64,000 nucleotides of DNA from Mesostigma viride (lineage: Eukaryota; Streptophyta; Mesostigmatophyceae; Mesostigmatales; Mesostigmataceae). Every line of letters starts with the position of its first letter. The first letter of the stretch is position 1. The notes below the pieces were generated by a model, which did no database searches, had not been told where the DNA came from, and saw only the letters and a list, made by a program, of their open reading frames with translations. Positions 20,095 to 63,237 of this stretch are shown here, piece by piece. A program made the translations under genes and the position numbers. The stretch is taken from contig RPFO01000156.1 of assembly GCA_009746045.1 (NCBI GenBank), positions 444,278 through 508,277 of the forward strand, written 5' to 3'.

Positions 20095-20152
20095 TGGTAA
20101 CTTGTCTGATTGACGCCGTTATTAGCTAGGCGTATAATGCTTCACGAGTTTC

Positions 20153-23090: not shown

Positions 23091-24490
23091 AGTTGCCTTG
23101 GGAGCTTTGCCCTCGGCGTCTTTCAGTTCATTGTGACGATGACGAGGGCTGTAAACTGCCGCTAGCCAACTAAGCCAGCATCCAGCATCCTCATCCTCTG
23201 GGAGAATGCTGGATGACCGGACGTGCCTTCTGCCCTCCCGTCACGAAGTCTGTCACTCAGCTGTTTAGCGTCTTCAGTTAAGGGTTCTCAGCCGTCAATG
23301 GAAGCAGCTAGCAAACTGGAAGCCCACCAGGTGTAGGCGTTGCATCCTGCGCTGAAGAACGTAAATAAATTATAAGCTGGCCATGCACACAACAAGGCTT
23401 TTCCCCCGTTCCCATGTTTTTTCCCTTTGCCTTACAGTAGAAAAAACAGGGGTGGCCCTTAACCCAGGTTTGCCCCCCCCCCCCCCACACACACACCTAC
23501 CCCCCCCAAAACGTACCAAAACGGTCCCAACAAAATTTTTACCATGCGAAGTCGATGTCGCTGATTCCAAATCCGTGCTCACCAATCACCATGACAATCG
23601 GCCCAGTCCTGCGAATGCCAGAAGTTTTGCAATTAAGGTGGCCCTTAACCAGATGTTTACGGTTTACTTCCGCGTCCGTGGCAAGGCAAATTTCTTTCTC
23701 AAACCCCAGAAGGGGTTTGTTCATTGTTGAGCATGCACGTCCGTGTAGACAATCCATATATTATTTCTGTCATGCGAGACAGTGTTGAGCAAGAAATTGC
23801 TGCTCACCCTAGCAAAGGGGTTTGGTCGTCACTATGTCTTCCTGCTAGCCCGTGCCGCTTCCTGCCTCTTGATAATGGAGCGAGTGCCGCCACCACCGTT
23901 TGTTGTGAATTCAGTTGGCCATGGCGTAAGATATCTGGGTACCGGACATGACGTTCGTTAATTGCGGATTGAGATCTGGCACGTTGTTGCTCGGAGGTTA
24001 CCCCTGAGCGTAATAGCTACCATTCACGCCTAAGGGCAACCGGTGTTGTAGTGTCACGTGCCGTTTTGGCGGTCGGGTGCTAACAAGTACGTCCTCGGCG
24101 GCAAGGCATGATTTCACCACAGTCGCGGACTCTCGTCGTGAAGTCCCAGTAAGAGACCGACATCCACATCTCGCAGGACATTCAGGACGTATCGAGAATG
24201 ACAGGCGTGCACGCGCTAGTCATGTAAGCTTCGCAGTAGTTTCGAGTACTTAATGCCTCAGCGGCCGCCGAGCTGTTTCGGCGGCGTTGTGTGGAATGGG
24301 GGACCCCATTCCCTCCGAAGCGGAGCCCGTTGGTCAACCCATCGCTCGAAGCAAAAGGTGCGTTTGCTGGTCAATCCCAACAAGTCATGGTCCGTGGGCT
24401 CGCCCTTTTGCCGCCGCGTCCTCTCGCTCGTCGTTCTCGTGTTCCCGTTCGTCTTCCTTGATGTAACCGACGCTTTCCCGTCTCCCTTAC
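23091..24490. other. Intergenic or 5' region, nothing firm
   Basis: Contains a C-run with CA repeats (23,468-23,500) and short frames only. A plus frame from an ATG at 24,253 runs to 24,579 and includes a hydrophobic stretch (VLSLVVLVFPFVFLDV), but it is out of frame with the following exon. It could be a first exon or signal-anchor region, or chance. Confidence 0.3.
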
Positions 24491-27400: not shown

Positions 27401-30400
27401 AGCACTCCTTTAACCCCGACACCCTTTTTCTGGACCCCCCCTCCTCCGTGCAGCTACTGCGAGTTCCAGGGCTTCTCGGATGACAGCAACATCTGGTGGG
27501 TGGGCGGCGAGAAGATGGCGCTGCGTGAGTACATCTACCAGAACAGCAAGATGGCCCTCCAGCTGTCGCGCCACAAGCGGACGACGCAGCTGACCAAGAA
27601 GCCGCTCCCGTACACCAAGATGCTGCCCGGTGGCGCGCAGCCAGCAGTCCCCGCGGCTGCGGCGGGGCCTGGTGGGCGATACACAGTGGGGCAACCGCGG
27701 CCAGGGGGTGGGCATGAGCTGTGCAACGTCATGCAAATCGGGGCGCGGTGAGTTCGATCAGTCATCTAGTGGTTCACATCCAGTCCATAAAATTACCTAC
27801 GTAGCCAGGTATCGGACAGAATTGTTTTGGGCAGGACTTCATTGCCTCATGTATGGCTTGTTGGTAGCTTGCTCGTTGTTCGGGTCAGGGCATGGTGTGC
27901 TTGATGCGTATGGTAGAAGATTTTAGATGAAAGCAATGTCTAGCTAGTCTGGTCAATGCATTGGGTAACGCCGTCTTCTTGGGCTCTGCTGGTTGTGTAC
28001 TATTGAATGTATAGTAGCAGCATGTTTGTTTCGTCTGGTCCATGTATAGTAACGTCCTCTTCGTGGGCTCTGCTGGTTGTCTACTATTCGCCTGTTGCGC
28101 TTGTAACTAGTCACCTTCTAAAGCCCGGGTTACGCTCGGTTACCCGTGCGGCATCTTGGCTCTGCTGCCAGCCAACAAATTCTCTATCGCAACATGCTCG
28201 GACTTCCTGCCCCGTGGAATAGAACATGGAATTCTTATCGCCGGTGGAGTCAATCTGCCATGGTCTAAGTCATGATTGTTCTTCAGCGCACCCAAGAGAG
28301 TAGACCTGTCTGCATCCATCCGTGGCTTTGCATCGTCAGTGAAGTGATATACTTGTGGTGCTGGACTTCGTGACGTGTGTTGGTGACATGCCAGCCCATC
28401 ACGTGTACCTCCCTGCTCACACGTACCTTCCTCTCCCCGTCCCCCCCACCTTCAGACACTTTGGTCTCTTCCCCCCCCCCAAAATGCCCAGCTTTCCCTT
28501 TTTTTTTTTTCGCCATCCCACCTACCACACCCATTCAATCCATCCCACCTGACCCCATCTAACCTTTACGTCCTATAAAACCATTTAGGTATTCGACCGC
28601 TTTTGGTGTCGCCTTGGGAAGCGGTAGTCAAAGTCCATCTAACTGGCACACTCAAGTATCCGCTGTCCCCCCCCCCCCCCCCATCCGACCAATCTCCGCC
28701 CCCGCCCCCCCCCCCCCTCTTTCCACCCTCAGCGTCAAGGCCCAGGCGGAAGTATGGCGTGCGATGGAAGCCACTGAGGTGGTCTGCCACATCTACGCGT
28801 ACCCTGGGCAGGAGAGCACGTACGCCGAGTGGCTGCGAGAGATGGACGCGGAGGCGCACTATTTTGGTCCGTTCACTAGCATGATGTTCTATAGTGCTAC
28901 AGTGACCGGGGCAGTGTCTGGTATCATAATTCCTTATTATCTAAATCTTTGTTTGTCTTTTCTTTTTTATCATTGAATTGCAACCTCTAGTGCCTAATCC
29001 CTAGTGCCTAAACCCTAGTGCCTACACCCTAGTGCCTAAAACCCTAGTGCCTACACCCTAGTGCCTAAACCCTAGTGCCTAAAACCCTAGTGCCTACACC
29101 CTAGTGCCTAAACCCTAGTTCCTAATCCCTAGTGCCTACACCCTAGTGCCTAAACCCTAGTGCCTCATCCCTAGTGCATTTCTGGGTCTCATTGGGAACG
29201 CTACATGTGACCCGTGTATTATACACGTGCATGTGACTAGTGCATTAGGGTTTAGGCACTAGTGGGTCTCATTGGGAAGGCTACATGTGACCCGTGTTGG
29301 GTTTAGGGTTTAGGGGGTTAGGGGTTAGGGGTTAGGGGTTTAGGGTTTAGGGTTTAAGGGTTTAGGGTCTCATTGGGAACGCTACATGTGACCCACTGCA
29401 TCAAAGTTGGTTGGCCACAGCATACAGCGCCCATGGTCCCATAGCATGAAGCGACCATGGTCCCACGACCCACAGCATACAGCGCCCATGGTCCCACGAC
29501 CCACAGCATACAGTGTCAGTGGTCTCTAATGTGGTTGCCTGGGTGGAGGAAAACTCTCCCCTCGCACCCGTACATGCAGGTTCCTCTAATCCCCCTTCCC
29601 CCCTCCCCTCGCACCCGTACATGCAGGTTCCTCCTATCCCCCCCCCCCCCCCCTCCCCTCGCACCCGTACATGCAGGTTCCTCTAACCCCCCCCCCCCTC
29701 CCCTCGCACCCGTACAGGCAGGTTCCTCTAAACCCTTCCCCCCCTCCCCTCCCCTCACACCCGTACAGGCAGGTTCCACTAATCCCCCCCCCCTCCCCTC
29801 GCACCCGTACATGCAGGTTCCTCTAATCCCCTTTCCCCCCCCCTCCCCTCACACCCGTACATGCAGGTTCCTCTAATCCCCCCCCCCTCCCCTCACACCC
29901 GTACAGGCAGGTTCCTCTAATCCTCCCCCCCCCCTCGCACCCGTACAGGCAGGTTCCTCTAATCCCCTTTCCCCCCTCCCCTCACACCCGTACAGGCAGG
30001 TTCCTCTAATCCCCCTTCCCCCCCTCCCCTCACACCCGTACAGGCAGGCTCCTCTAATCCCCCCCCCTCCCCTCACACCCGTACAGGCAGGTTCCTCTAA
30101 TCCTCCCCCCTCCCCTCCCCTCACACCCGTACATGCAGGTTCCTCCTATCCCCCCCCCCCCCCCTCCCCTCACACCCGTACATGCAGGTTCCTCTAAGCC
30201 CCCCCCCCCTCCCCTCGCACCCGTACAGGCAGGTCCCTCCTATCCTCCCCCCCCCCCTTTTCCCCTCCCTTCCCTCCTGCCCTCCCAGCCTTTCTCAATT
30301 ATTGCTCCCATCCTCCCTTCTCACCCCACTCTTGCTTCCCACTCATTCCGACATAATCGCAAGCCAGCCCCGTGAAAAAGTAAGCGTTTGCCTTACAAAG

Positions 30401-33227: not shown

Positions 33228-33370
33228 TAGTGGTCTTTTAAGTATTACTAGGGGTGGGGTTATTTCCTGTTGGCCGCACTGCAGCTGCCGGTTCTACCAC
33301 GGTAGTGGTCTTATAAGTATCGCTAGCGGTGGGGTTATTTCACTGCAGCTGCCGGTTCTTCCACGGTAGG
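33185..33370 (+). repeat. Triplicated CACTGCAG-CTGCCGGTTCT segment
   Basis: The sequence CACTGCAGCTGCCGGTTCTA and CCACGGTA occurs at about 33,193, 33,280 and 33,344 with shared flank (GTGGTCTTWTAAGTAT, GGTGGGGTTATTTC). The first copy forms the last codons of the plus-strand gene (CSCRFYHG). Each copy resembles an acceptor plus exon start, so the C-terminus of the gene could be spliced differently from the read-through assumed here. Confidence 0.75.
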
Positions 33371-36178: not shown

Positions 36179-38280
36179 TAATTTTAATGCCTCCGTTGGT
36201 TGGGAGATCATGTAGCACATATTCCTTGATGGGTGGCCGGTGGAGTGGAGAGAGCCGTGTAATCGGACTAACCTAACGCTAATCTAGCTAGTCTAGAAAA
36301 ATCCTAACTACCCTACTCATCAAAACGCCTCCTCAGGATCTTGGGGGGAGATGGCTTGCCCACACCGGCGGTCGGGCGTGTGAGCCTTGACAATCTTCTG
36401 CCACCCCGTCTTGTTCTGCATGGCAGTCCAAATTAGAAGGGAGAGAGAGTGGATGCGGTATTCAAACTGGGCTGGGACCAGTAGGTCATCCAGCAACATC
36501 TGGACATAGTTCGTGGCATGTTTCCCTACCCTTTTGGGAATGCCCTTGGGGCCAGGCCAGGTCAGAATGTGCCGCCCTGGCGCTGGCCAAGCCGCTGGGG
36601 GCTGGCCAGACCAAGGGCGGTGTCGACCTGGCTGGTGCGAGCAAGGTGTCCTACAAATGCTATCCTGCGATGTCTAATCTCGTCCGAAATACTCGAGGCA
36701 TGCCCTGATACAAAGACTCTGATGACGGGCGCTAGTTGGAAAACCCTACGTTCAGGACCTGTCGGAGCATCCTGTAAACTGTGCCGTCTAGCCTAGATGC
36801 CAGTGTGGGGGTGAACTCGTGTCCACGCCTCGGCGCCATACGTGAGCACTGAGCACCGTGAAGACGAGGACCTTGAAGAGCTTGCGCTTGCGGTGCTCGC
36901 CCAGGCCCTTGGAGCGCCAGTAGGTGTTGAGCGCGAACGGAGCCTAGCCCAGGCCAGGCCAATGCGGGTGTCCACATCGTCGGCGGTGTCAGGGAGCCAG
37001 CTCCCTAACAGTTTGAAGCGATCGCGGAACGGTACCGTCGTCCCGTCGAGCAGGCGCGGCAGCGGCGGTGTACCGGGAGGCCCCAATCACCATCGCCTCA
37101 GTTTTGACACTAATCTCCAACCCCACCGCCCTCGCCTCCAGGCCCAGACAGTCCAGCCAGGTCTAGAATGTGCTCGGGGCGCGCGATGAGGGTGGTGTCA
37201 TCCGCATAAATCAGGTCGGCCAGGCGGTATAGCCCGGTTCAACCCCGCCGTGCTCTTTCTCCTTAAGGATGTCCAAGCCTGGCTCGAACCCCTCTGTCTG
37301 AGCAGTAAAGCGCGCACGTGCTCGGCGCATGACGTGATCCACGACAATAATGAACAGGTATGGGGACAGGACACAACCTTGCCACACCCCGTGGTGAAGG
37401 GGGAATGGTGGGGTGGTGCCTTCCGCAGTCCGCACTACTGCCTGTGAGCCCTCATACAGTCGGCGAATGGCAGCAATAAACGCAGGTGGCACTCGATCCA
37501 GAGCTAGGATGGCCCAAAGAGCCTCCCAGAGGACCGTGTCAAAGGCCTTGATATAGTCAACAAAAATGAAGACCAGCGGCAAACTGTCAGGGGGAATGCG
37601 ACGCACCTCCTCCATCAACCGGCGCGCGACAAACACAGCCATGACAGTGTTACGACCACGACGAAAAACCATCTGAGACTCACCCAGGTGTGGGTCCAGC
37701 GCGGCGCGGAGCCTGTGCAGCATCATGCGCATGAAGACCTTCAGCTAGCGCAGTGCTCTGGAGGCAGACACCCTGGTAGTTCAGTACCGGGGTCAGCAGC
37801 AGAGCCCTTCTTGTACAGCATGACGCGGATGGCCGTCTGCTACTCAGCAGGCGGAGGCTCGTCAGAAAGCAGGACACGGTTGCAGAACGCCAGCAGAAGA
37901 TTCCTAACCGCCGGATCAGGGGTCTTCAGCAGCTCAGCAGAAAGGTGGTCGGCACCGACCCCCGCATCGTACCCGGCAGGCGAGCAAGGGTGCCGTCCAA
38001 TGCCTTCAAAGTGAAGGGGTGGACGACGTCGTCGGTGGCAAGGCAGCCCTCCTGCAAGGCGGGGACTAGGTAGTCCGCGGCCGAGGAGGGGGGCCGGCAC
38101 TGGCGGTCTGCATCACTGCATGGCAGTCCAAAGCTGTTCTGCATGGCAGTCCAAAGAAGGGAGAGGGAGTGGATGCGGTGTTCAAACTGAGCTGGGACCA
38201 CTAGGTCGGCCAGCAACATCTGGGTGTAGTTCATGACAGGTTTACCTAGCTTCCTGGGAATGTCCTTGGGGCCAGGACAT
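36179..38280 (-). pseudogene. LINE with reverse transcriptase (decayed ORF2)
   Basis: Minus-strand frames, shifted several times, spell a reverse transcriptase in order: GVGADHLSAELLK and AVRNLLLAFCN (37,840-38,000), SQMVFRRGRNTVMAVFVARR, FVDYIKAFDTVLWEALW, HHGVWQGCVLSPYLFI (37,320-37,680), the active-site box LIYADDTTLIARPEH (about 37,170-37,215, in another frame), then FKLLGSWLPDTADDVDTRIG and LTYGAEAW (36,830-37,040). The 3' end reaches a hairpin and AATTT tail at about 36,181. The first 180 bp (38,100-38,280) is instead a C-terminal ORF2 piece (VVPAQFEHRIHSLSLLW), so it is a rearranged or composite copy. Several frameshifts make it inactive. Confidence 0.8.
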
Positions 38281-45660: not shown

Positions 45661-48600
45661 TTATCCCATCCGCACAATGCCGGCCTTGACCAGCTTTGCG
45701 ACCTTGGAGGCCACAACAGGGTTCTGCAGGTGATGCTGGGATGCCTTGGGGTCCGAAGAGAGGTCATTCAGCACCTGCAAGTGACCACAGTGATCATACC
45801 ATCATCATGAGGCAAATCATAACAATTGATAGACATTAGATGCCGGGAGAATTCTATTCCTGATCGGTAACTAGGTAGGTAGTTCCCCCAGACCCGCGTG
45901 CCTTCAACCTCCAGCCAGCTCCCCCAAAAGGCTGAGACTGCAACAAAACAGCACAAGGCTTGCAACCTGACAGAGAGGGAAGGACCTTCAGAAGGAGCGA
46001 TGGCAGGAGACTGCTCACGTGATGCCAAGGCATGCACAGCATAGAACTCAACACCATGCCGGTAATCAAAGGTACCTACTCAAACAGCGTTTACCCCATG
46101 ACTCTGCAAACAAAGGCAGAAGAACGAACAAATGCATGAACCAATTGCGCGATCAATGCTAGTAGTGTACCAGCAGAAACTACCATGTAGAGGTCCTGTC
46201 TGATTGATCGCGTTTGCATGGCCCAGGTTTGACGCTCACCTGGCGCATGACGGGGTCGGTCAGGATCTGCTGGATCTCTGGGTCCGCCATCGCCTTGGCC
46301 TGCACCCACGACGCGACAAGGAAAAGCGAGAAGAAAGAGAGGAAACATGGTAAGAACGCGACAAAGAAACATTGTAAGAAAGGGTAGCGAGCACCCTGCT
46401 CGAGGGGGTTCGCTCCATCCCTTAGTCATGGGTGGGAGCACTCCATGATAGCCCACTCAGCCTGCGGCTGCGACACATGGCACGCTACGATATGATAGGA
46501 GCCAAGGAACTAGGGCAACAGTGAGAGAGATAAAGCCGATAGGGTACTGAGAACAGGGGGGATTGCAGGGCAGGGCATGATGAGAGAAGGAAAGAAAGGA
46601 GGAAAGAAACAGGAGAAGAGCATACGTGAGGACACGAGAACAGGGAAATAGCAAGGGTCGCAGATAGAACTCCACGATAAGTGGCTTAACCAGCAAAGAC
46701 CAAACATACCCTTGCCTTTCCACCCCTGCTGCGCCTGCTCCCCAAGCCCAACCCCCCTTCCCTGCTCTTTGAGAAATGCTACAGCCAGGGGGCACCAGCT
46801 TTTATGTGTAGTTGCTTACACATATGCCATTGAAAGACCAGCTAAACCTAAAGAAAAGGGTATTCATGCTATTCGCGCTGATAGTTGAGTTGGTCCTTCC
46901 ATATCGGCACCTTATTTGTCTGCCCCCATCAAATGCATGGTGGAGCTGTGATGATTACCCAACCTACAAGACAGAAAACACTGTCCTAAAGCACAAGAAT
47001 GGGGAAGAGCATCACACTAATTATATTCTCTGGTCTAAACTCGTGTGCAAGCGAATCCAAGAGGCATAAGCTTATCCTACATGAGCTGCACACATCCGCT
47101 GACCCATAACATAATCAAAGGCCACCAGGCACAAAAATATACCTCCTTGTCTCCCACTTGTCGAAGCTCCTCTTAGATAAAAGATACATACATGGCAGTA
47201 CATGGCCAGGATACATCTCTATGGCACGGATAACAAAGCCACTCACTTGTCTCTATGGCATGGATAACACAGCCACTCACCTGTCTCTATGGCATGGATA
47301 ACAAAGCCACTCACTTGTCTCCTCTATGGCATGGATAACAAAGCCACTCACTTGTCTCTATGGCATGGATAACAAAGCCACTCACTTGTCTCCTCTATGG
47401 CATGGATAACAAAGCCACTCACTTGTCTCCTCTATGGCATGGATAACAAAGCCACTCACTTGTCTCTATGGCATGGACAACAAAGCCACTCACTTGTCTC
47501 CTCTATGGCATGGATAACAAAGCCACTCACTTGTCTCCTCTATGGCATGGATAACAAAGCCACTCACTTGTCTCCTCTATGGCATGGATAACAAAGCCAC
47601 TCACTTGTCTCTATGGCATGGACAACAAAGCCACTCACCTGTCTCCTCTATGGCATGGATAACAAAGCCACTCACTTGTCTCTATGGCATGGATAACAAA
47701 GCCACTCACTTGTCTCCTCTATGGCATGGATAACAAAGCCACTCACTTGTCTCTATGGCATGGATAACAAAGCCACTCACTTGTCTCTATGGCATGGATA
47801 ACAAAGCCACTCACTTGTCTCCTCTATGGCATGGATAACAAAGCCACTCACTTGTCTCCTCTATGGCATGGATAACAAAGCCACTCACTTGTCTCCTCTA
47901 TGGCATGGATAACAAAGCCACTCACTTGTCTCTATGGCATGGATAACAAAGCCACTCACTTGTCTCTATGGCATGGATAACAAAGCCACTCACCTGTCTC
48001 TATGGCATGGATAACAAAGCCACTCACTTGTTCCTCTATGGCATGGATAACAAAGCCACTCACTTGTCTCCTCTATGGCATGGATAACAAAGCCACTCAC
48101 CTGTCTCTATGGCATGGATAACAAAGCCACTCACTTGTCTCCTCTATGGCATGGATAACAAAGCCACTCACTTGTCTCCTCTATGGCATGGATAACAAAG
48201 CCACTCACTTGTCTCCTCTATGGCATGGATAACAAAGCCACTCACTTGTCTCTATGGCATGGATAACAAAGCCACTCACTTGTCTCTATGGCATGGATAA
48301 CAAAGCCACTCACTTGTCTCTATGGCATGGATAACAAAGCCACTCACCTGTCTCTATGGCATGGATAACAAAGCCACTCACTTGTTTCCTCTATGGCATG
48401 GATAACAAAGCCACTCACTGTCTCCTCTATGGCATGGATAACAAAGCCACTCACTTGTCTCTATGGCATGGATAACAAAGCCACTCACCTGTCTCTATGG
48501 CATGGATAACAAAGCCACTCACTTGTCTCCTCTATGGCATGGATATCAAAGCCACTCACTTGTTTCCTCTATGGCATGGATAACAAAGCCACTCACTTGT

Positions 48601-51600
48601 CTCTATGGCATGGATAACAAAGCCACTCACTTGTCTCTATGGCATGGATAACAAAGCCACTCACTTGTCTCCTCTATGGCATGGATAACAAAGCCACTCA
48701 CTTGTCTCTATGGCATGGATAACAAAGCCACTCACTTGTCTCTATGGCATGGATAACAAAGCCACTCACTTGTCTCCTCTATGGCATGGATAACAAAGCC
48801 ACTCACTTGTCTCTATGGCATGGATAACAAAGCCACTCACTTGTCTCCTCTATGGCATGGATAACAAAGCCACTCACTTGTCTCTATGGCATGGATAACA
48901 AAGCCACTCACTTGTCTCTATGGCATGGATAACAAAGCCACTCACTTGTCTCTATGGCATGGATAACAAAGCCACTCACTTGTTCCTCTATGGCATGGAT
49001 AACAAAGCCACTCACTTGTCTCCTCTATGGCATGGATAACAAAGCCACTCACCTGTCTCTATGGCATGGATAACAAAGCCACTCACTTGTCTCCTCTATG
49101 GCATGGATAACAAAGCCACTCACTTGTCTCCTCTATGGCATGGATAACAAAGCCACTCACTTGTCTCCTCTATGGCATGGATAACAAAGCCACTCACTTG
49201 TCTCTATGGCATGGATAACAAAGCCACTCACTTGTCTCCTCTATGGCATGGATAACAAAGCCACTCACTTGTCTCCTCTATGGCATGGATAACAAAGCCA
49301 CTCACTTGTCTCCTCTATGGCATGGATAACAAAGCCACTCACTTGTCTCTATGGCATGGATAACAAAGCCACTCACTTGTCTCTATGGCATGGATAACAA
49401 AGCCACTCACTTGTCTCCTCTATGGCATGGATAACAAAGCCACTCACTTGTCTCTATGGCATGGATAACAAAGCCACTCACTTGTCTCTATGGCATGGAT
49501 AACAAAGCCACTCACTTGTCTCCTCTATGGCATGGATAACAAAGCCACTCACTTGTCTCTATGGCATGGATAACAAAGCCACTCACTTGTCTCCTCTATG
49601 GCATGGATAACAAAGCCACTCACTGTCTCTATGGCATGGATAACAAAGCCACTCACTTGTCTCTATGGCATGGATAACAAAGCCACTCACTTGTCTCTAT
49701 GGCATGGATAACAAAGCCACTCACTTGTCTCTATGGCATGGATAACAAAGCCACTCACTTGTCTCCTCTATGGCATGGATAACAAAGCCACTCACTTGTC
49801 TCTATGGCATGGATAACAAAGCCACTCACTGTCTCCTCTATGGCATGGATAACAAAGCCACTCACTTGTCTCCTCTATGGCATGGATAACAAAGCCACTC
49901 ACTTGTCTCCTCTATGGCATGGATAACAAAGCCACTCACTTGTCTCCTCTATGGCATGGATAACAAAGCCACTCACTTGTCTCTATGGCATGGATAACAA
50001 AGCCACTCACTTGTCTCTATGGCATGGATAACAAAGCCACTCACTTGTCTCCTCTATGGCATGGATAACAAAGCCACTCACTTGTCTCTATGGCATGGAT
50101 AACAAAGCCACTCACTTGTCTCCTCTATGGCATGGATAACAAAGCCACTCACTTGTCTCTATGGCATGGATAACAAAGCCACTCACTTGTCTCTATGGCA
50201 TGGATAACAAAGCCACTCACTTGTCTCCTCTATGGCATGGATAACAAAGCCACTCACTTGTCTCCTCTATGGCATGGATAACAAAGCCACTCACTTGTCT
50301 CCTCTATGGCATGGATAACAAAGCCACTCACTGTCTCTATGGCATGGATAACAAAGCCACTCACTTGTCTCTCTATGGCATGGATAACAAAGCCACTCAC
50401 TTGTCTCTATGGCATGGATAACAAAGCCACTCACTTGTCTCCTCTATGGCATGGATAACAAAGCCACTCACTTGTCTCTATGGCATGGATAACAAAGCCA
50501 CTCACTTGTCTCTATGGCATGGATAACAAAGCCACTCACTTGTCTCCTCTATGGCATGGATAACAAAGCCACTCACTTGTCTCTATGGCATGGATAACAA
50601 AGCCACTCACTGTCTCTATGGCATGGATAACAAAGCCACTCACTTGTCTCTATGGCATGGATAACAAAGCCACTCACTTGTCTCCTCTATGGCATGGATA
50701 ACAAAGCCACTCACTTGTCCTCTATGGCATGGATAACAAAGCCACTCACTTGTCTCTATGGCATGGATAACAAAGCCACTCACTTGTCTCTATGGCATGG
50801 ATAACAAAGCCACTCACTTGTCTCCTCTATGGCATGGATAACAAAGCCACTCACTTGTCTCTATGGCATGGATAACAAAGCCACTCACTTGTCTCTATGG
50901 CATGGATAACAAAGCCACTCACTTGTCTCCTCTATGGCATGGATAACAAAGCCACTCACTTGTCTCTATGGCATGGATAACAAAGCCACTCACTTGTCTC
51001 CTCTATGGCATGGATAACAAAGCCACTCACTTGTCTCTATGGCATGGATAACAAAGCCACTCACTTGTCTCTATGGCATGGATAACAAAGCCACTCACTT
51101 GTCTCTATGGCATGGATAACAAAGCCACTCACTTGTCCTCTATGGCATGGATAACAAAGCCACTCACTTGTCTCCTCTATGGCATGGATAACAAAGCCAC
51201 TCACTGTCTCTATGGCATGGATAACAAAGCCACTCACTTGTCTCCTCTATGGCATGGATAACAAAGCCACTCACTTGTCTCCTCTATGGCATGGATAACA
51301 AAGCCACTCACTTGTCTCCTCTATGGCATGGATAACAAAGCCACTCACTTGTCTCTATGGCATGGATAACAAAGCCACTCACTTGTCTCCTCTATGGCAT
51401 GGATAACAAAGCCACTCACTTGTCTCCTCTATGGCATGGATAACAAAGCCACTCACTTGTCTCCTCTATGGCATGGATAACAAAGCCACTCACTTGTCTC
51501 TATGGCATGGATAACAAAGCCACTCACTTGTCTCTATGGCATGGATAACAAAGCCACTCACTTGTCTCCTCTATGGCATGGATAACAAAGCCACTCACTT

Positions 51601-54600
51601 GTCTCTATGGCATGGATAACAAAGCCACTCACTTGTCTCTATGGCATGGATAACAAAGCCACTCACTTGTCTCCTCTATGGCATGGATAACAAAGCCACT
51701 CACTTGTCTCTATGGCATGGATAACAAAGCCACTCACTTGTCTCCTCTATGGCATGGATAACAAAGCCACTCACTTGTCTCTATGGCATGGATAACAAAG
51801 CCACTCACTTGTCTCTATGGCATGGATAACAAAGCCACTCACTTGTCTCTATGGCATGGATAACAAAGCCACTCACTTGTCTCTATGGCATGGATAACAA
51901 AGCCACTCACTTGTCTCCTCTATGGCATGGATAACAAAGCCACTCACTTGTCTCTATGGCATGGATAACAAAGCCACTCACTTGTCTCCTCTATGGCATG
52001 GATAACAAAGCCACTCACTTGTCTCCTCTATGGCATGGATAACAAAGCCACTCACTTGTCTCCTCTATGGCATGGATAACAAAGCCACTCACTTGTCTCC
52101 TCTATGGCATGGATAACAAAGCCACTCACTTGTCTCTATGGCATGGATAACAAAGCCACTCACTTGTCTCTATGGCATGGATAACAAAGCCACTCACTTG
52201 TCTCCTCTATGGCATGGATAACAAAGCCACTCACTTGTCTCTATGGCATGGATAACAAAGCCACTCACTTGTCTCCTCTATGGCATGGATAACAAAGCCA
52301 CTCACTTGTCTCTATGGCATGGATAACAAAGCCACTCACTTGTCTCTATGGCATGGATAACAAAGCCACTCACTTGTCTCCTCTATGGCATGGATAACAA
52401 AGCCACTCACTTGTCTCCTCTATGGCATGGATAACAAAGCCACTCACTTGTCTCCTCTATGGCATGGATAACAAAGCCACTCACTTGTCTCTATGGCATG
52501 GATAACAAAGCCACTCACTTGTCTCTCTATGGCATGGATAACAAAGCCACTCACTTGTCTCTATGGCATGGATAACAAAGCCACTCACTTGTCTCCTCTA
52601 TGGCATGGATAACAAAGCCACTCACTTGTCTCTATGGCATGGATAACAAAGCCACTCACTTGTCTCTATGGCATGGATAACAAAGCCACTCACTTGTCTC
52701 CTCTATGGCATGGATAACAAAGCCACTCACTTGTCTCTATGGCATGGATAACAAAGCCACTCACTTGTCTCTATGGCATGGATAACAAAGCCACTCACTT
52801 GTCTCTATGGCATGGATAACAAAGCCACTCACTTGTCTCCTCTATGGCATGGATAACAAAGCCACTCACTTGTCTCCTCTATGGCATGGATAACAAAGCC
52901 ACTCACTTGTCTCCTCTATGGCATGGATAACAAAGCCACTCACTTGTCTCTATGGCATGGATAACAAAGCCACTCACTTGTCTCTATGGCATGGATAACA
53001 AAGCCACTCACTTGTCTCTATGGCATGGATAACAAAGCCACTCACTTGTCTCCTCTATGGCATGGATAACAAAGCCACTCACTTGTCTCTATGGCATGGA
53101 TAACAAAGCCACTCACTTGTCTCTATGGCATGGATAACAAAGCCACTCACTTGTCTCCTCTATGGCATGGATAACAAAGCCACTCACTTGTCTCTATGGC
53201 ATGGATAACAAAGCCACTCACTTGTCTCTATGGCATGGATAACAAAGCCACTCACTGTCTCTATGGCATGGATAACAAAGCCACTCACTTGTCTCCTCTA
53301 TGGCATGGATAACAAAGCCACTCACTTGTCTCCTCTATGGCATGGATAACAAAGCCACTCACTTGTCTCCTCTATGGCATGGATAACAAAGCCACTCACT
53401 TGTCTCCTCTATGGCATGGATAACAAAGCCACTCACTTGTCTCTATGGCATGGATAACAAAGCCACTCACTTGTCTCTATGGCATGGATAACAAAGCCAC
53501 TCACTTGTCTCTATGGCATGGATAACAAAGCCACTCACTTGTTCCTCTATGGCATGGATAACAAAGCCACTCACTTGTCTCCTCTATGGCATGGATAACA
53601 AAGCCACTCACTTGTCTCTATGGCATGGATAACAAAGCCACTCACTTGTCTCCTCTATGGCATGGATAACAAAGCCACTCACTTGTCTCCTCTATGGCAT
53701 GGATAACAAAGCCACTCACTTGTCTCCTCTATGGCATGGATAACAAAGCCACTCACTTGTCTCTATGGCATGGATAACAAAGCCACTCACTTGTCTCTAT
53801 GGCATGGATAACAAAGCCACTCACTTGTCTCTATGGCATGGATAACAAAGCCACTCACTTGTCTCTATGGCATGGATAACAAAGCCACTCACTTGTCTCC
53901 TCTATGGCATGGATAACAAAGCCACTCACTTGTCTCTATGGCATGGATAACAAAGCCACTCACTTGTCTCCTCTATGGCATGGATAACAAAGCCACTCAC
54001 TTGTCTCTATGGCATGGATAACAAAGCCACTCACTTGTCTCTATGGCATGGATAACAAAGCCACTCACTTGTCTCCTCTATGGCATGGATAACAAAGCCA
54101 CTCACTTGTCTCCTCTATGGCATGGATAACAAAGCCACTCACTTGTCTCCTCTATGGCATGGATAACAAAGCCACTCACCTGTCTCTATGGCATGGATAA
54201 CAAAGCCACTCACTTGTCTCTCTATGGCATGGATAACAAAGCCACTCACTTGTCTCTATGGCATGGATAACAAAGCCACTCACTTGTCTCCTCTATGGCA
54301 TGGATAACAAAGCCACTCACTTGTCTCTATGGCATGGATAACAAAGCCACTCACTTGTCTCTATGGCATGGATAACAAAGCCACTCACTTGTCTCCTCTA
54401 TGGCATGGATAACAAAGCCACTCACTTGTCTCTATGGCATGGATAACAAAGCCACTCACTTGTCTCTATGGCATGGATAACAAAGCCACTCACTTGTCTC
54501 TATGGCATGGATAACAAAGCCACTCACTTGTCTCCTCTATGGCATGGATAACAAAGCCACTCACTTGTCTCCTCTATGGCATGGATAACAAAGCCACTCA

Positions 54601-57600
54601 CTTGTCTCCTCTATGGCATGGATAACAAAGCCACTCACTTGTCTCTATGGCATGGATAACAAAGCCACTCACTTGTCTCTATGGCATGGATAACAAAGCC
54701 ACTCACTTGTCTCTATGGCATGGATAACAAAGCCACTCACTTGTCTCCTCTATGGCATGGATAACAAAGCCACTCACTTGTCTCTATGGCATGGATAACA
54801 AAGCCACTCACTTGTCTCTATGGCATGGATAACAAAGCCACTCACTTGTCTCCTCTATGGCATGGATAACAAAGCCACTCACTTGTCTCTATGGCATGGA
54901 TAACAAAGCCACTCACTTGTCTCTATGGCATGGATAACAAAGCCACTCACTTGTCTCTATGGCATGGATAACAAAGCCACTCACTTGTCTCCTCTATGGC
55001 ATGGATAACAAAGCCACTCACTTGTCTCCTCTATGGCATGGATAACAAAGCCACTCACTTGTCTCCTCTATGGCATGGATAACAAAGCCACTCACTTGTC
55101 TCCTCTATGGCATGGATAACAAAGCCACTCACTTGTCTCTATGGCATGGATAACAAAGCCACTCACTTGTCTCTATGGCATGGATAACAAAGCCACTCAC
55201 CTGTCTCTATGGCATGGATAACAAAGCCACTCACTTGTTTCCTCTATGGCATGGATAACAAAGCCACTCACTTGTCTCCTCTATGGCATGGATAACAAAG
55301 CCACTCACTGTCTCTATGGCATGGATAACAAAGCCACTCACTTGTCTCCTCTATGGCATGGATAACAAAGCCACTCACTTGTCTCCTCTATGGCATGGAT
55401 AACAAAGCCACTCACTTGTCTCCTCTATGGCATGGATAACAAAGCCACTCACTTGTCTCTATGGCATGGATAACAAAGCCACTCACTTGTCTCTATGGCA
55501 TGGATAACAAAGCCACTCACTTGTCTCTATGGCATGGATAACAAAGCCACTCACCTGTCTCTATGGCATGGATAACAAAGCCACTCACTTGTTTCCTCTA
55601 TGGCATGGATAACAAAGCCACTCACCTGTCTCCTCTATGGCATGGATAACAAAGCCACTCACTTGTCTCTATGGCATGGATAACAAAGCCACTCACCTGT
55701 CTCTATGGCATGGATAACAAAGCCACTCACTTGTCTCCTCTATGGCATGGATAACAAAGCCACTCACTTGTTTCCTCTATGGCATGGATAACAAAGCCAC
55801 TCACTTGTCTCTATGGCATGGATAACAAAGCCACTCACTTGTCTCTATGGCATGGATAACAAAGCCACTCACTTGTCTCCTCTATGGCATGGATAACAAA
55901 GCCACTCACTTGTCTCTATGGCATGGATAACAAAGCCACTCACTTGTCTCTATGGCATGGATAACAAAGCCACTCACTTGTCTCCTCTATGGCATGGATA
56001 ACAAAGCCACTCACTTGTCTCTATGGCATGGATAACAAAGCCACTCACTTGTCTCTATGGCATGGATAACAAAGCCACTCACCTGTCTCTATGGCATGGA
56101 TAACAAAGCCACTCACCTGTCTCTATGGCATGGATAACAAAGCCACTCACCTGTCTCTATGGCATGGATAACAAAGCCACTCACTTGTCTCCTCTATGTC
56201 ATGGATAACAAAGCCACTCACTTGTCTCTATGGCATGGATAACAAAGCCACTCACCTGTCTCTGTGGCATGGATAACAAAGCCACTCACCTGTCTCTATG
56301 GCATGGATAACAAAGCCACTCACCTGTCTCTATGGCATGGATAACAAAGCCACTCACTTGTCTCCTCTATGTCATGGATAACAAAGCCACTCACTTGTCT
56401 CTATGGCATGGATAACAAAGCCACTCACCTGTCTCTATGGCATGGATAACAAAGCCACTCACTTGTCTCCTCTATGGCATGGATAACAAAGCCACTCACT
56501 TGTCTCCTCTATGGCATGGATAACAAAGCCACTCACTTGTCTCTATGGCACGGATAACAAAGCCACTCACTTGTCTCCTCTATGGCACGGATAACAAAGC
56601 CACTCACTTGTCTCCTCTATGGCACGGATAACAAAGCCACTCACTTGTCTCCTCTATGGCATGGATAACAAAGCCACTCACTTGTCTCTATGGCATGGAT
56701 AACAAAGCCACTCACTTGTCTCTATGGCATGGATAACAAAGCCACTCACTTGTCTCCTCTATGGCATGGATGACAAAGCCACTCACTTGTCTCTATGGCA
56801 TGGATAACAAAGCCACTCACTTGTCTCTATGGCATGGATAACAAAGCCACTCACTTGTCTCCTCTATGGCATGGATGACAAAGCCACTCACTTGTCTCCT
56901 CTATGGCATGGATAACAAAGCCACTCACTTGTCTCTATGGCATGGATAACAAAGCCACTCACTTGTCTCCTCTATGGCATGGATAACAAAGCCACTCACT
57001 TGTCTCCTCTATGGCATGGATAACAAAGCCACTCACTTGTCTCTATGGCATGGATAACAAAGCCACTCACTTGTCTCCTCTATGGCATGGATAACAAAGC
57101 CACTCACTTGTCTCTATGGCATGGATAACAAAGCCACTCACTTGTCTCTATGGCATGGATAACAAAGCCACTCACTTGTCTCTATGGCATGGATAACAAA
57201 GCCACTCACTTGTCTCCTCTATGGCATGGATAACAAAGCCACTCACTTGTCTCCTCTATGGCATGGATAACAAAGCCACTCACTTGTCTCCTCTATGGCA
57301 TGGATAACAAAGCCACTCACTTGTCTCTATGGCATGGATAACAAAGCCACTCACTTGTCTCCTCTATGGCATGGATAACAAAGCCACTCACTTGTCTCTA
57401 TGGCATGGATAACAAAGCCACTCACTTGTCTCCTCTATGGCATGGATAACAAAGCCACTCACTTGTCTCCTCTATGGCATGGATAACAAAGCCACTCACT
57501 TGTCTCCTCTATGGCATGGATAACAAAGCCACTCACCTGTCTCTATGGCATGGATAACAAAGCCACTCACTTGTCTCCTCTATGGCATGGATAACAAAGC

Positions 57601-60600
57601 CACTCACTTGTCTCTATGGCATGGATAACAAAGCCACTCACCTGTCTCCTCTATGGCATGGATAACAAAGCCACTCACTTGTCTCCTCTATGGCATGGAT
57701 AACAAAGCCACTCACTTGTCTCCTCTATGGCATGGATAACAAAGCCACTCACTTGTCTCCTCTATGGCATGGATAACAAAGCCACTCACTTGTCTCCTCT
57801 ATGGCATGGATAACAAAGCCACTCACCTGTCTCTATGGCATGGATAACAAAGCCACTCACTTGTCTCCTCTATGGCATGGATAACAAAGCCACTCACTTG
57901 TCTCTATGGCATGGATAACAAAGCCACTCACCTGTCTCCTCTATGGCATGGATAACAAAGCCACTCACTTGTCTCCTCTATGGCATGGATAACAAAGCCA
58001 CTCACCTGTCTCTATGGCATGGATAACAAAGCCACTCACTTGTCTCCTCTATGGCATGGATAACAAAGCCACTCACTTGTCTCCTCTATGGCATGGATAA
58101 CAAAGCCACTCACCTGTCTCTATGGCATGGATAACAAAGCCACTCACTTGTCTCTATGGCATGGATAACAAAGCCACTCACTTGTCTCTATGGCATGGAT
58201 AACAAAGCCACTCACCTGTCTCTCTTTGAGCTCCTCTTCGCTGACGTTGCCCGACATGACCTTGCTCAGCTGGTCGTAGCACCTGCAGGGGGGGGGGGGG
58301 GGGGGGGGGCGCATGTGTGATCATTGGGGCATATCACCACAAAGATTCTTCAGGACTCTGCGTCAAACCCAACAAGCTACGACGGCAAACTCGGGCCATT
58401 CTGCATTCAAACAGCATTGTCAGAGCATCCACTTTCGCACTTTCCCACCTAACCCCCCCCCAAGGAAACAGGGCTAGTCAGTATCTTCAGGGAGTTTTCG
58501 GGGAATGAAATGGTACAGTCTGACCCTTCCCCTGTTTCCTCCCTTTCTTTCTCCTTGTCACACCAAACCTGGACCGGCCAGCGGGATTTGTTTCAAAAAC
58601 GGCAGCGCGGGAGCAGTAACTCCCTCTTTTTGGCTTGCCGCCCCCCCCAGTCAGCGTCCCCCACCTGCTCATATGGAAGCCCTAGACTCGTCACTATAGC
58701 ATTAGCTTCTTTCACCAAAACCACCCCTATGCCCCCAACCGTGAGCTTCTCGTTCTCCAATAACTGATATTACAGCTATTGACACAATCACTGCAACCAC
58801 CGCTGTAACCCACCGGCGCACCACCTCCTTAAGCTCCGCGTTCTCCTATACCTGAAATCCTCAGTACCATTACTAGTGTTAATAATGGTTAATATGACCC
58901 ACCTGCGCACTCCCTCCTTGAGCTCCTCGTTCTCCGGGTCGTGCTTCAAGCCCTCCTGTTGGTGTGGGGATGTGGGAACACAAGTGGCCACATGGGTGGG
59001 CATGTGGGTGGGCATATTGGTGGGCATATTGGTGGGCATGTGGGTGGGCATATTGGTGGGCATATTGGTGGGCATATTGGTGGGCATGTGGGTGGGCATG
59101 CGGGTGGGCATGTGGGTGGGCATGTGGGTGGGCATGTGGGTGGGCATGTGGGTGGGCATGTGGGTGGGCATGCGGGTGGGCAAAAGGGTGTGTTCATGCT
59201 TGCGGTGAATAGGGGTGCGGTGGTGGGGTATAACCCGCTGCTCGTCCAATTTGTTGCAAAATAATACCAGTACGGGCTCATGAGCCACATCCTCACAATG
59301 AACTGCCTGACAAAATCGCTAGTGAGGCTACTGCTACACATCATATGATTATTGTGGTACATTGGATGCATTACTAATTACCGTGGCCAAGACATCTGCC
59401 CCCTCCCCTGGTACGCAGCGAACACTTTCTCATACTTAATTCAAATGAAGCTACCACTTCGCTGCTTACCGATGCCCCAAATCTCCAATGCCCTCCCTTC
59501 CAACCTGGTGCGTGGCGAGCGATCGTGTGGCTATTAATGAGTCTTAAAGCAGACCAACTTGAAACATGACCAATACTACTCGACCCTACCCACCCTGGTA
59601 CGCGGCGAGCACTCGTCTGGCTATTCATGAGTCTTACAGCGGACCGACTTGCGCACAAACAAGGGTCTAGGGCAGCAGCTCTGCTACAACAGCATCCATA
59701 ACCTTACTCCCTCGCATCGGCACCCCAGCCCGCTCACCAAATCCGTTGCGAGCGCCTTCCCATGCTAAAATTATGCTACTATCGCTTAGCTACCAGCAAC
59801 AACAAAATAGCCCCGATTCTAACGACGTTCCTGGTAGGTTGCGAGCGCCTTCCCATCTTCAAGTTATGCTGCTGTCGCTTAGCTAACAGAAACAACAACA
59901 AATGAGCGATTCTAACGACGTTACTCTTTACCCACCTGGTAGGTTGCGAGCGCCTTCTCGTAGTCGCGCATGAAGAACTGTGCGTGGCCCTTGCGCGAGT
60001 ACCCCTTGCCAAAGTTGGGCGCCATCTCGATGCACTTGTCGGCATCTTTGAGAGACTCCGGGAACGCCCCCAGCTTGGCGTAGCACGCCGCGCGGTTGCT
60101 GTACAGCCTGTAGTCGCTCGGGTCGCGCTTCATCGCGTCGCTGTAGAAGGTGACGGCCTCGGGGTACTGCTGCGCGCGGAACGCCTCGTTGCCTGCGGGC
60201 GGCCGTCACCATGGGGAAAAAAGGTTTGAACACGCAGTTTGGAAAAGAACAGACAAACCATTAATTAATTAATTAATTAGGAACATAACTCCGTTGGGAG
60301 TATATGTAGCGCATAGCCCAGAGAAGGGGCATATGGCCTATCATACATTCTAAGCTACTTCCTGCAAGGGTGGGAATGTAAACGACCCTTGCTCTAGGTG
60401 CACCAGGGCACTTGCAGCCCCATGATCTTTGACAAACCATGCTCCTTGAGAATCTGAGTTGTGAGAAAGAACAAACAAACCATATCCCTTAAAATCAGGT
60501 CTGAAAAAGAACAGACTAACCATGTCCCTGAAGAATCAGTTCTATAAAGGACCCTATCCCTTCAGAAGATACCGGCCAAAACCCCTAGGAAAAAAGCAGC

Positions 60601-62352
60601 AGCGGGTGTTACAGAGACCATGGCTACAATATCTGCCCACAGTTAAGGAGCGATATAAAAGAGAGAGAGAGATACCAACCACGTTATGCAGTAAAAACAT
60701 CAAGAAGTAAAATGACACACCGCATGCATCACACGGTATGGAAAAAGAACAAGACAAAAACTGGACAAAAAGAAAAATCCGATTGACGAGATAGCAGCAA
60801 CAGCGGTGGGTAGTAGATAATAATAGTGACAGGTGCATGCGCATCGCTGAACTACGCCATAGCCAGGGCTGCCTGGATACTAGCCAGATGCACCGACCAA
60901 ACCCACCCGACCGACACCCACGGCGATGACGAATGCCACGCACCATAATTGCCAATATCCCTTCTCGAAAAACTACAAGTACGCATCGTTGTCCCTGGCC
61001 TGCTCTGCCGGCTTGGGCGGATTCATAACCCTGGTAGAAACATACAGAAAACCCACCGGGCTACCCATTACCCCACCCCCCACATACCCTTCTCCCTTGC
61101 CTCCTCGGCCAGCTTCGGGCCTACCAAGAGTTAGATAAACCAACACCTGACAAGTGATCATGCAACCATTATCCATCATGCACAAAAATAACGTGACTAC
61201 ATGGGTAACCAAGATTATACTATGATACTATATCAATGAGGTGTACTATACTACAATAACGTGACTACATGGGTAATCAAGATTATACTATGATACTATA
61301 TCAATGAGGTGTACTATACTACAATAACGTGACTACATGGGTAATCAAGATTATACTACGATACTATATCAATGAGGTGTACTATACTACAATAACGTGA
61401 CTACATGGGTAATCAAGATTATACTACGATACTATATCAATGAGGTGTACTATACTACAATAACGTGACTACATGGGTAATCAAGATTATACTACGATAC
61501 TATATCAATGAGGTGTACTACACTAGAATAACGTGACTACATGGGTAATCAAGATTATACTACGATACTATATCAATCAGGTGTACTATACTACAATAAC
61601 GTGACTACATGGGTAATCAAGATTATACTACGATGCTATATCAATGAGGTGTACTATACTACAATAACGTGACTACATGGGTAATCAAGATTATACTACG
61701 ATGCTATATCCATGAGGTGCACTATACTACTACACTTTATCAATGAGACAACCAGCGCAGGCCAGAAACGATATACTACTATATATATTCATTGCGAATG
61801 ATAAATTACGGAGGTGAGCTTGGCATATATATGGGGGGACCAAGTGGATTATAAAACCCAACATGGCGACACACCCTCCTCTCGTGCCTCCTTGAAGCGC
61901 TCGGGTTTCAAATGGCACTAGCCTCCTTGATATCATATAGCCTCCTTGATATCATATAGCACTAGCCTCCTTGACGCGCTCGGGTTTCATATCGCACTAG
62001 CCAGATACACGAACGTGGACCACCCAACCACCGCCCATGCCCGCGAGAGAGTGGCCCACGCACCCTTCTCCCTCGCCTCCTCAGCCAGCTTGGGATCGAT
62101 GTAGTCCTTGGCCTCCTGCTCCGCCTTGGCCCTCTCAGCCTGCTGCAGCCGCTTGAGCGTGTCCGGGTTGCGGTGCTCCGTGAGCGCCTTCTGGTACGCC
62201 TCGATGGCAGGCGTGTAGTCGCTGGCGCACGTCACCATCTTCATCAGCGCGTTGCCCTTGCGCGTGTACGCCTTGCTGATCTGCTTGTAGTCGGCGTGGA
62301 CGCGGCGGCCAAGCTCCACCGCGTCGTCGCAGTCCTTGATACACTCGGAGTA
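45661..62352 (-). CDS. STI1/HOP co-chaperone, C-terminal half (six exons)
   Basis: HOP/STI1 bridges Hsp70 and Hsp90 in the cytosol through TPR domains. Minus-strand exons: 62,352-62,064; 60,192-59,936; 58,955-58,903; 58,282-58,216; 46,299-46,240; 45,774-45,661 (stop TAA). All have AG/GT borders and compatible phases, giving 279 residues. Exon 1 here encodes the end of TPR2A and the linker (RRVHADYKQISKAYTRKGNA; ALTEHRNPDTLKRLQQAERA; DPKLAEEAREKG). Exon 2 is TPR2B (DYRLYSNRAACYAKLGAFPE; GKGYSRKGHAQFFMRDYEKA), with the KxxxR-type carboxylate-clamp residues apparently retained. Exons 3-4 encode the link (EGLKHDPENEELKEGVR; SGNVSEEELKERQ). Exons 5-6 encode the DP2 domain (AKAMADPEIQQILTDPVMRQ; KLVKAGIVRMG). 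The N-terminus (TPR1, DP1, most of TPR2A) lies beyond the right edge. Intron 4 is 11.9 kb, mostly one repeat array. Confidence 0.93.
46300..47216 (-). other. STI1 intron 4, non-repetitive part
   Basis: The acceptor-side 0.9 kb of intron 4. Short frames only. An A/G-rich tract (46,560-46,640) becomes a polypyrimidine-rich tract on the gene strand. No element recognised. Confidence 0.5.
47217..58215 (-). repeat. About 11-kb minisatellite carrying splice-donor units (STI1 intron 4)
   Basis: A tandem array of about 300 units. The two main lengths are 34 bp and 37 bp (the latter has an extra CCT on the plus strand). On the gene strand each unit reads AGAGACAAGTGAGTGGCTTT then GTTATCCATGCCAT. The array starts at the real donor of exon 4 (AGAGACAG + GTGAGTGGC, 58,216): the first unit is the junction itself. 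Most units have CAA + GTGAGT, a minority CAG + GTGAGT (identical to the real donor) and some ACA + GTGAGT. Point variants (GTTTCC, TGTTCC, TCTCTCT, CACGGATAAC) cluster and recur, which suggests block duplication. The short frames across the array are artefacts. Confidence 0.97.
58738..58850 (-). repeat. Decayed copies of the exon 3 donor junction (STI1 intron 3)
   Basis: The real exon 3 end on the minus strand is GAGAACGAGGAGCTCAAGGA followed by GGGAGTGCGCAG and the donor GTGGGTC (58,903). A copy at about 58,808-58,848 reads GAGAACGCGGAGCTTAAGGA, then GGTGGTGCGCCG and GTGGGTT. A third at about 58,741-58,760 reads GGAGAACGAGAAGCTCACGG. Spacing is about 90 bp. Confidence 0.85.
58965..59190. repeat. 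12-bp minisatellite (GTGGGCATGTGG) in STI1 intron 2
   Basis: About 17 units of 12 bp, GTGGGCATRTKG, lying just upstream (on the gene strand) of the exon 3 acceptor. Gly/His/Trp or Pro/Thr/Met-rich frames across it are artefacts. Confidence 0.92.
59506..59860 (-). repeat. Decayed copies of the exon 2 donor junction (STI1 intron 2)
   Basis: The real junction on the minus strand is GAGAAGGCGCTCGCAACCTA, CCAG + GTGGGTA (59,936). Copies: about 59,831-59,860 (GAAGGCGCTCGCAACCTACC), 59,740-59,762 (GGAAGGCGCTCGCAACGGA), and more diverged 59,590-59,640 (GAGTGCTCGCCGCGTACCAG + GGTGGGTAG) and 59,506-59,555 (CGCTCGCCACGCACCAG + GTTGGAA). The first two are tandem units of about 90 bp; the last two are a pair of about 90 bp. 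Confidence 0.8.
60262..60430 (-). mobile_element. Short LINE family A 3'-end copy in STI1 intron 1, 10-bp TSD
   Basis: A 169-bp copy of the family A 3' terminus in the same orientation as the gene, with an AATT tail at 60,262-60,279 followed by the CTCC-loop-GGAG hairpin. GACAAACCAT flanks it at 60,252-60,261 and 60,431-60,440. The copy is close in sequence to that at 44.85-45.04 kb. Confidence 0.85.
61085..61120 (-). repeat. Decayed copy of the exon 1 donor junction (STI1 intron 1)
   Basis: On the minus strand CCCGAAGCTGGCCGAGGAGG, then CAAGGGAGAAGG + GTATGTG mirrors the real junction (CCCAAGCTGGCTGAGGAGGC, GAGGGAGAAGG + GTGCGTG at 62,064). It would encode PKLAEEAREKG as the real exon does. 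It lies nearly 1 kb downstream of the true junction. Confidence 0.85.
61188..61735. repeat. 68-bp minisatellite in STI1 intron 1
   Basis: About eight units of 68 bp, each with AATAACGTGACTACATGGGT and TCAATGAGGTGTACTATAC. No coding or splice-like content was recognised. Confidence 0.95.
61871..62003 (-). repeat. Further decayed copies near the exon 1 donor (STI1 intron 1)
   Basis: On the minus strand CAAGGAGGCACGAGAGGAGG + GTGTGTC (about 61,871-61,900) resembles GCTGAGGAGGCGAGGGAGAAGG + GTGCGTG in reduced form. A partner at about 61,969-62,003 shares the unit GCGCTCGGGTTTCAWATSGC. They are more decayed than the copy at 61,085. Confidence 0.6.
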
Positions 62353-62540: not shown

Positions 62541-62580
62541 GCGTCTCTCGTAGTCCTTGATGCGCTCGGAATACTGGGGA
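62541..62580 (-). repeat. Decayed copy of an STI1 acceptor junction
   Basis: On the minus strand TCCCCAG then TATTCCGAGCGCATCAAGGA and CTACGAGAGACGC mirrors the real acceptor at 62,352 (CCCCCAG then TACTCCGAGTGTATCAAGGA, CTGCGACGACGC). It would read YSERIKDYERR then stop. It lies about 225 bp upstream of the true exon. Confidence 0.85.
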
Positions 62581-63237
62581 AAAGGGGGCGAGAGGGGAGG
62601 GATAGGGGACATGACGTTGCAAGCGCAGAAGAGGAAGGTAGGGGGGTATAAAGCAGGGAGGGGAAAGATAGGGCACAAAACGTCCCAGGAGATAGGGAGG
62701 GGGGCGGGTAGGGATAGGGGGCCAGGGGCATGAGGGGGGGAAGGTGTGGGGAGGAAAGAGGGAAAGGAGGAGGAGGGGAAATGGATCAGGGGGGGGATGA
62801 AGGGGGGGGGGGGGGGCACGCGGTCAGCTGCTTTGAAACAAACATGACCCCAAATGGATCAATGGATGCCTGCGAAACAATTTTGTGCCTGAGCGTCTCT
62901 ATGTGCGCGTGTATACACGCGCGGGCGTCAAGGCGTCAACATGCTTGGGGTGAAACGAAAATATATGGGGGCATAGATGGCTACTGCCACTGAAACCGGA
63001 AAGCGACGGGGAGGGCGGGGGGGGGGGGAAAGCAAAAGGAAACAGAACATGCAGAACAACTGGACAAAGAAATGGATGGGGACACCCAAAGGCACCCATG
63101 CCTTTCCACCACAGCGTCATTTGCAAAAAGACCCGGAAGGACCTATCAACTTCGAGCCCTGCAGCAGTTGCGTTGTGACAACGGGTGGGCAAGATACGGA
63201 AGCAGGCAACGGAAAAGACTGGACACATTTCCAGGTA

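Follow-up and report, generated by a model that had tools for sequence, protein, structure and literature searches.

Tandem repeats that span exon–intron boundaries have been named 'mirages' in amphioxus, where the passages of the description drawn on here report them in Adh3 and also in globin genes, at both boundary types. Many of the copies, not all, retain the AG or GT, the ends of the clusters escape homogenisation, and reverse transcription PCR suggested that regular splicing is undisturbed (PMC3087553). Imperfect duplications of the mirage kind are likewise described for lancelet PGBD5 in passages that name troponin C too (PMC3902484). A 64,000 nt stretch of the genome of the streptophyte alga Mesostigma viride (contig RPFO01000156.1, positions 444,278 to 508,277; hereafter the window) carries on its minus strand the C-terminal part of an STI1/HOP gene (best solved relative 7kw7 chain E, E value 7.5e-107), and intron 4 of this gene contains a tandem array with the exon 4/intron 4 junction itself as its opening unit. 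Judged from its sequence, the array has the structural features of a mirage and appears to be an extreme case of this known kind of repeat. An earlier note on this DNA had recognised no named class of repeat defined in this way; according to the passages cited, the amphioxus mirages fit (PMC3087553), and intron 7 of human F7 offers a functional precedent (PMC6627357).

The array occupies 47216–58223 on the minus strand (11,008 bp) and is made up of 311 units, mostly 34 or 37 bp long, each with GTGAGTGGC. Tandem Repeats Finder (TRF) reports 311.1 copies over the same interval with 94 % matches, and the minus strand of the array holds 311 GTGAGT sites, which bears out the roughly 300 donor-like sites in 11 kb of the earlier note. 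The 310 spacings between these sites are 34 bp (155), 37 bp (139), 36 bp (8), 33 bp (6) and 35 bp (2). The predominance of 34 and 37 bp units was thus correctly described; the accompanying statement that these lengths are not both multiples of three needs correction, as neither is. GTGAGTGGC is kept in 311/311 units and, with a largest spacing of 37 bp, the site has been lost in none. A 24 nt piece of the unit (≤3 mismatches) matches 311 times in the 64 kb window and 0 times in 100 shuffles; by count, therefore, no match lies outside the array within the window. An exact 30-mer of the unit has no match in prokaryote and viral collections, which hardly bear on algae.

The final eight bases of STI1 exon 4, AGAGACAG, belong to the start of the array and are in register with the repeat, in agreement with the claim that the array begins at this junction. 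This exon end matches the CAG-type units exactly and differs by one base from the commonest unit, AGAGACAA. Among the 310 decoys (the donor-like sites after the true donor) the bases before GT are CAA in 277, CAG in 25 and ACA in 8, and G to A is indeed the predominant change at the last exon base. Exon 4 is the likely source of the array bases, since the exon end encodes a motif common in STI1/HOP (KERQ in 146 of 238 homologues and LKERQxKAM in 89, in a set that includes fragments and animal sequences).

Several features are shared with the amphioxus mirages: a boundary-spanning tandem repeat with the real boundary as first unit, splice signals in many copies (GTGAGTGGC in all 311), and copies at 5′ as well as 3′ boundaries and in several genes (here 7 of 12 donors and 3 of 12 acceptors, in two genes). 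In the passages of PMC3087553, repeat units are 10–72 bp in Adh3 and 150–160 bp in globin genes, compared with 34 and 37 bp in STI1, and the one globin cluster counted there comprises 6 units in one haplotype and 3 in another, whereas the STI1 array has 311. The amphioxus mirages are animal, whereas the STI1 array belongs to a streptophyte alga and most of its decoys lack the last exon G. No report of mirages outside animals was found in the literature searched, which consisted of open-licence papers, most queries being on other questions and the one aimed at mirages covering 15 of 385 papers. The Chlamydomonas and Haematococcus literature on intron repeats held nothing relevant by title, and a pine paper considered as a mirage or minisatellite case was set aside, as both words stand solely in its reference list. 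Introner elements are also repeated, splice-site-bearing DNA in algae; these are dispersed and insert into genes, whereas the STI1 unit in the window is confined to one array. In intron gain by tandem duplication, as in potato RdRp (PMC4974935), splice signals are duplicated as in the STI1 array, but that duplication is tied to a new intron, whereas the STI1 case lengthens an existing one. For Mesostigma, a mean intron length of 1141.87 bp is given, with repeats making up 30.1 % of intron space (PMC6947507, in part); the passages drawn on from two Mesostigma genome papers make no mention of junction repeats.

The STI1 array is probably a mirage in this sense, that is, a minisatellite that arose as a splice junction was locally duplicated in tandem and that is tolerated through use of the exon-proximal donor. 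A segment of approximately 34 bp, with 8 bases from the end of STI1 exon 4 and 26 from the start of intron 4, would have been duplicated, after which unequal exchange and block duplication would have amplified it to 311 units. Splicing would take the exon-proximal, most upstream donor alone, and the gene would survive because each further copy then lands in the intron and is discarded. We infer the mechanism of duplication, the exclusive use of the first donor and the neutrality of the copies. The proposal of the earlier note that the junction itself was the seed is favoured by the eight exon bases in register, by CAG decoys that are densest in the exon-side fifth of the array, and by the copying of 10 of 24 junctions.

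The six STI1 exons were placed by homology and GT/AG borders, and are numbered as visible in the window; the N-terminal part of STI1 was not found within it. All on the minus strand, these are exon 1 (62064–62352; YSECIKD..EEAREKG; homology, with a 100 % match to Mesvir1 model P0103 over the exon), exon 2 (59936–60192; NEAFRAQ..ALATYQ; homology, GT/AG), exon 3 (58903–58955; EGLKHDPENEELKEGVR..; homology, GT/AG), exon 4 (58216–58282; CYDQLSKVMSGNVSEEELKERQ; homology, with the true donor next to it at 58215), exon 5 (46240–46299; AKAMADPEIQQILTDPVMRQ; homology, GT/AG) and the last exon (45661–45774; VLNDLSSDPK..KAGIVRMG, stop; homology). The end of exon 4, ..EEELKERQ, joins the start of exon 5, AKAMADPEIQ.., in phase 0. 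The conserved ELKERQ-AKAMADPE is restored in frame by one of the 311 donors, the first (donor 0); the second (donor 1) already shifts the frame, and a stop is met from 309 of the 311, 308 times inside the extension and once in exon 5. The frame argument of the earlier note is thereby supported.

Computed pairing with the 5′ end of U1 is −13.8 kcal/mol for CAG units, −6.9 for CAA and −6.5 for ACA, and for the true STI1 donors −6.8 (exon 1), −13.3 (exon 2), −11.6 (exon 3) and −11.4 (exon 5). The 285 of 310 decoys that lack the last-exon-base G thus lack about half of the computed U1 pairing energy. To this extent the suggestion that G to A weakens the decoys stands; it is not the whole answer, because 25 decoys keep CAG/GTGAGTGGC, the nearest of which (58113) follows the true donor at a distance of 102 nt, and because the true exon 1 donor pairs no better than a CAA decoy. 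With donor strength alone insufficient for correct splicing, a position or context rule must act. Such a rule has a described precedent in human F7 intron 7, where, in the passages cited, several donors lie in 37 bp repeats and the most upstream one alone is used (PMC6627357). The human case is one gene, and there is no sign of a common origin with the STI1 array. It also has far fewer units; STI1 intron 4, with 25 exact CAG/GTGAGTGGC decoys, is a natural test of donor choice.

The same 25 decoys could be regarded as joined acceptor–donor sites, at which ratchet (recursive) splicing would remove the intron stepwise. CAG/GTGAGT is the form that such sites would take, but the preceding bases, GCCATAGAGACAG, contain no pyrimidine tract (judged by eye) and the AG directly before GT that defines a recursive site is absent from the other 285 decoys, which makes this explanation scarcely plausible. 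It is also conceivable that the array has a selected function as a bank of U1-binding decoys, slowing removal of the intron, blocking early polyadenylation in a long intron or soaking up U1. GTGAGTGGC is invariant in 311/311 units while other positions vary, as such a function would suggest. However, about eight distinct substitutions elsewhere in the unit (our own count) lead to an expectation of only about three in these nine bases, so that zero is weak evidence; with too few independent changes, no selection on this block is claimed. The 285 decoys without the last-exon G and about half of the computed pairing energy also argue against a decoy function, and we consider it quite unlikely.

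The order of the units bears on how the array grew. Eighteen unit types can be told apart among the 310 complete units; their order is non-periodic, and the block repeats that it contains are imperfect. Units of like type recur most often 61 and 48 units apart (0.51 and 0.46, where composition alone would give 0.34), and one stretch of 21 units is present twice. These lag peaks and the duplicated run are as expected from block duplication or unequal exchange. An assembly artefact, in which the genomic array would be much shorter, has a precedent in one amphioxus mirage that was apparently misassembled in a genome draft, according to the passages of PMC3087553. The diversity of unit types, their non-periodic order, the imperfection of the block repeats and a window free of N make such an artefact improbable for STI1. 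By fifths of the array (62 units each), counted from the exon side, CAG decoys number 13, 5, 0, 0 and 7, and the excess in the first fifth has a nominal Fisher p of 0.0002, the units not being independent. With old-type units towards either end and uniformity in between, the array resembles an amphioxus mirage for which boundary exclusion is described (PMC3087553).

Junction copies were also found outside intron 4. The two genes of the window, STI1 and a second gene on the plus strand (Mv00645, 24296–33216; hereafter gene 2), provide 24 junctions, 12 donors and 12 acceptors. Queries comprised up to 40 exon and 10 intron bases for donors, and 15 intron and up to 35 exon bases for acceptors; each was aligned to its own intron, both as it stands and in 200 shuffled versions, and to the other introns. 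Two of the targets were incomplete introns: for the upstream STI1 intron the part within the window, and downstream of gene 2 exon 7 a stretch of 690 bases. Copies in the own intron were found for 7 of 12 donors (STI1 donors 1–4 and gene 2 donors 2, 5 and 7; scores 36–59) and 3 of 12 acceptors (STI1 acceptor 1 and gene 2 acceptors 3 and 7; scores 45–59). All ten matches score above all 200 shuffles and all other introns, the best other-intron score among the 24 junctions being 25. The junction and its best copy are 34–116 bp apart in seven families and about 221, 500 and 976 bp apart in three. In the smaller families, GT is retained in some copies and lost in others.

In STI1 (minus strand), the exon 1 donor junction has a copy in intron 1 at 61079–61118 (alignment; the exon is in gene model P0103) and a second, more diverged one at 60981–61017 (alignment). 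A 93 bp tandem unit starts in the end of exon 2 and repeats into intron 2 (59745–59957; TRF and alignment), and the exon 2 donor junction recurs twice in diverged form at 59500–59651 (alignment, scores 24 and 25 only). In intron 3, the exon 3 donor junction has a copy that keeps GTGGGT (58808–58846; alignment), and the exon 1 acceptor junction is copied in the upstream intron (62541–62588; alignment and self-comparison). In gene 2 (plus strand), the best copy of the exon 2 donor junction lies at 26571–26599 (junction alignment). The remaining gene 2 copies were seen both by alignment and by self-comparison: the exon 3 acceptor junction at 27330–27364, the exon 5 donor junction at 31099–31144, three copies of the exon 7 acceptor junction within 32403–32952 (32403–32454, 32673–32699 and 32894–32952), and two copies of the exon 7 donor junction, in an 85 bp tandem unit, within 33276–33369 (33276–33311 and 33341–33368).

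Whether junctions are special depends on the controls. Exon-interior segments have an own-intron copy in 0 of 94 comparisons, with a highest score of 26. The STI1 exon 3 acceptor query reached 29 against intron 3 in the first junction matrix, a score explained by the shortness of exon 3, which lets the query extend almost to the exon end. A clean exon-interior control does not call for a hot spot, since local duplications inside exons would mostly break the protein. Unfiltered intron-interior 50-mers outside arrays have an own-intron copy in 12 of 101 cases at a score of ≥36 (20 at ≥29), and several of these 12 are themselves junction copies. For a filtered control, 17 stretches judged to be junction copies were removed, some by eye; of the overlapping 50-mers that remained, 6 of 159 have an own-intron copy, from three places, giving a nominal Fisher p of 1e-6 against 10 of 24 junctions. 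The true excess is expected between the unfiltered (p 0.002) and filtered (p 1e-6) values. In an annotation-free self-comparison, 23 local repeat pairs were left after distance, array, score and complexity filters; 13 lie in the two gene spans and 10 of those touch a junction or junction copy (our own reading).

These controls also bear on the idea that the STI1 array is an ordinary intronic minisatellite abutting the exon by chance, with coincidental matching of exon bases and junctions that are not special. Window introns do hold arrays with no tie to a junction seen (TRF: 61187–61730, 68 bp ×8; 58993–59182, 12 bp ×16; 29556–30258, 48 bp ×15), and the 12 of 101 unfiltered intron-interior segments are also copied in their own intron. 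Against coincidence stand the eight exon bases that extend the array in register, the copying of junctions in excess of filtered intron interiors (with the overlap of those segments in mind) and of exon interiors, and the presence of junction copies among the 12 unfiltered matches. On balance, an ordinary minisatellite is unlikely.

Several points nevertheless weigh against growth from the junction by tandem duplication, or against a general role of junctions. The homology of the array to the exon is limited to 8 bases, and beyond the array the best candidate for a more extended exon 4 copy scores 20, a value that 41 of 500 shuffles reached, which is chance level. CAG decoys increase again in the far fifth, giving no simple gradient. 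Exclusive use of the first donor in STI1 is a prediction, for which the conserved protein argues. No own-intron copy was found for 14 of 24 junctions (5 donors and 9 acceptors), and against the unfiltered control the junction excess is much weaker (10/24 against 12/101, p 0.002). Most exon borders were drawn from homology and GT/AG; with the three gene 2 borders that are in no gene model left out, copies remain at 6 of the 10 donors and at 2 of the 11 acceptors, and p against the unfiltered control is 0.007.

Selection alone leaves the excess over intron interiors unexplained; junctions may undergo duplication more frequently, or else copies of interior sequence may decay unnoticed. When a donor junction is duplicated, the exon-proximal donor would stay intact and the copy would fall in the intron, a nearly neutral change, while a duplication across an acceptor would set up a competitor upstream of the true acceptor, so that fewer of these should be tolerated. 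The 7 donors against 3 acceptors point that way, although the difference is not significant (p 0.21). More tentatively, and with the balance of our judgement somewhat against it, splice junctions of Mesostigma viride might be recurrent hot spots of local tandem duplication, the long introns of this alga consisting to a considerable extent of growing and decaying copies of their own boundaries, with STI1 intron 4 as a runaway case and copies occasionally becoming new mini-exons. If this were so, Mesostigma would be the first mirage-rich genome outside animals, and if the pattern were genome-wide it would offer a simple route to intron lengthening and to new exons and introns in a lineage that stands at the base of the land plants.

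One public gene model is directly affected. P0103 (jgi/Mesvir1/5856) is the only protein with 100 % identity to STI1 among the best 120 of 420 matches, and among the best 120 of 322 for the full-length query; no transcript-based Mesostigma STI1 protein was seen among the latter. After exon 1, P0103 continues with a second PKLAEEAREKG and then VLAGIF, which correspond to the junction copy in intron 1 and a stretch at 60582; the model thus adopted a junction copy as an exon and stopped before the array. The copy at 61079–61118 differs from the end of exon 1 at three bases in its exon part, all at third codon positions (read by eye), and this in-frame mini-exon could be either genuine or mispredicted. 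For annotators, a model that took a junction copy for an exon and ended early is a warning.

Gene 2 matches P0240 (jgi/Mesvir1/5855) at 98–100 % per piece. Its donors 6 and 7 and acceptor 7 are without support in P0240 and were drawn in this analysis; P0240 runs through the likely donor after 32097 and does not include the likely last exon at 33031–33216. Four pieces of gene 2 gave no Pfam match; we presume a likeness to FkbM methyltransferases.

Elsewhere in the window, long GC-rich ORFs at 15388–20118 (minus strand) have the appearance, on inspection by eye, of a retroelement that includes reverse transcriptase and recombinase parts; they gave no Pfam match. The only Pfam match among ten window ORFs is a reverse transcriptase fragment at 37217–37744 (minus strand; PF00078, E value 5.1e-16). 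Two further arrays, at 13058–13329 and 22629–22952, lie 9 kb apart and have 117 bp consensus units that look alike (TRF).

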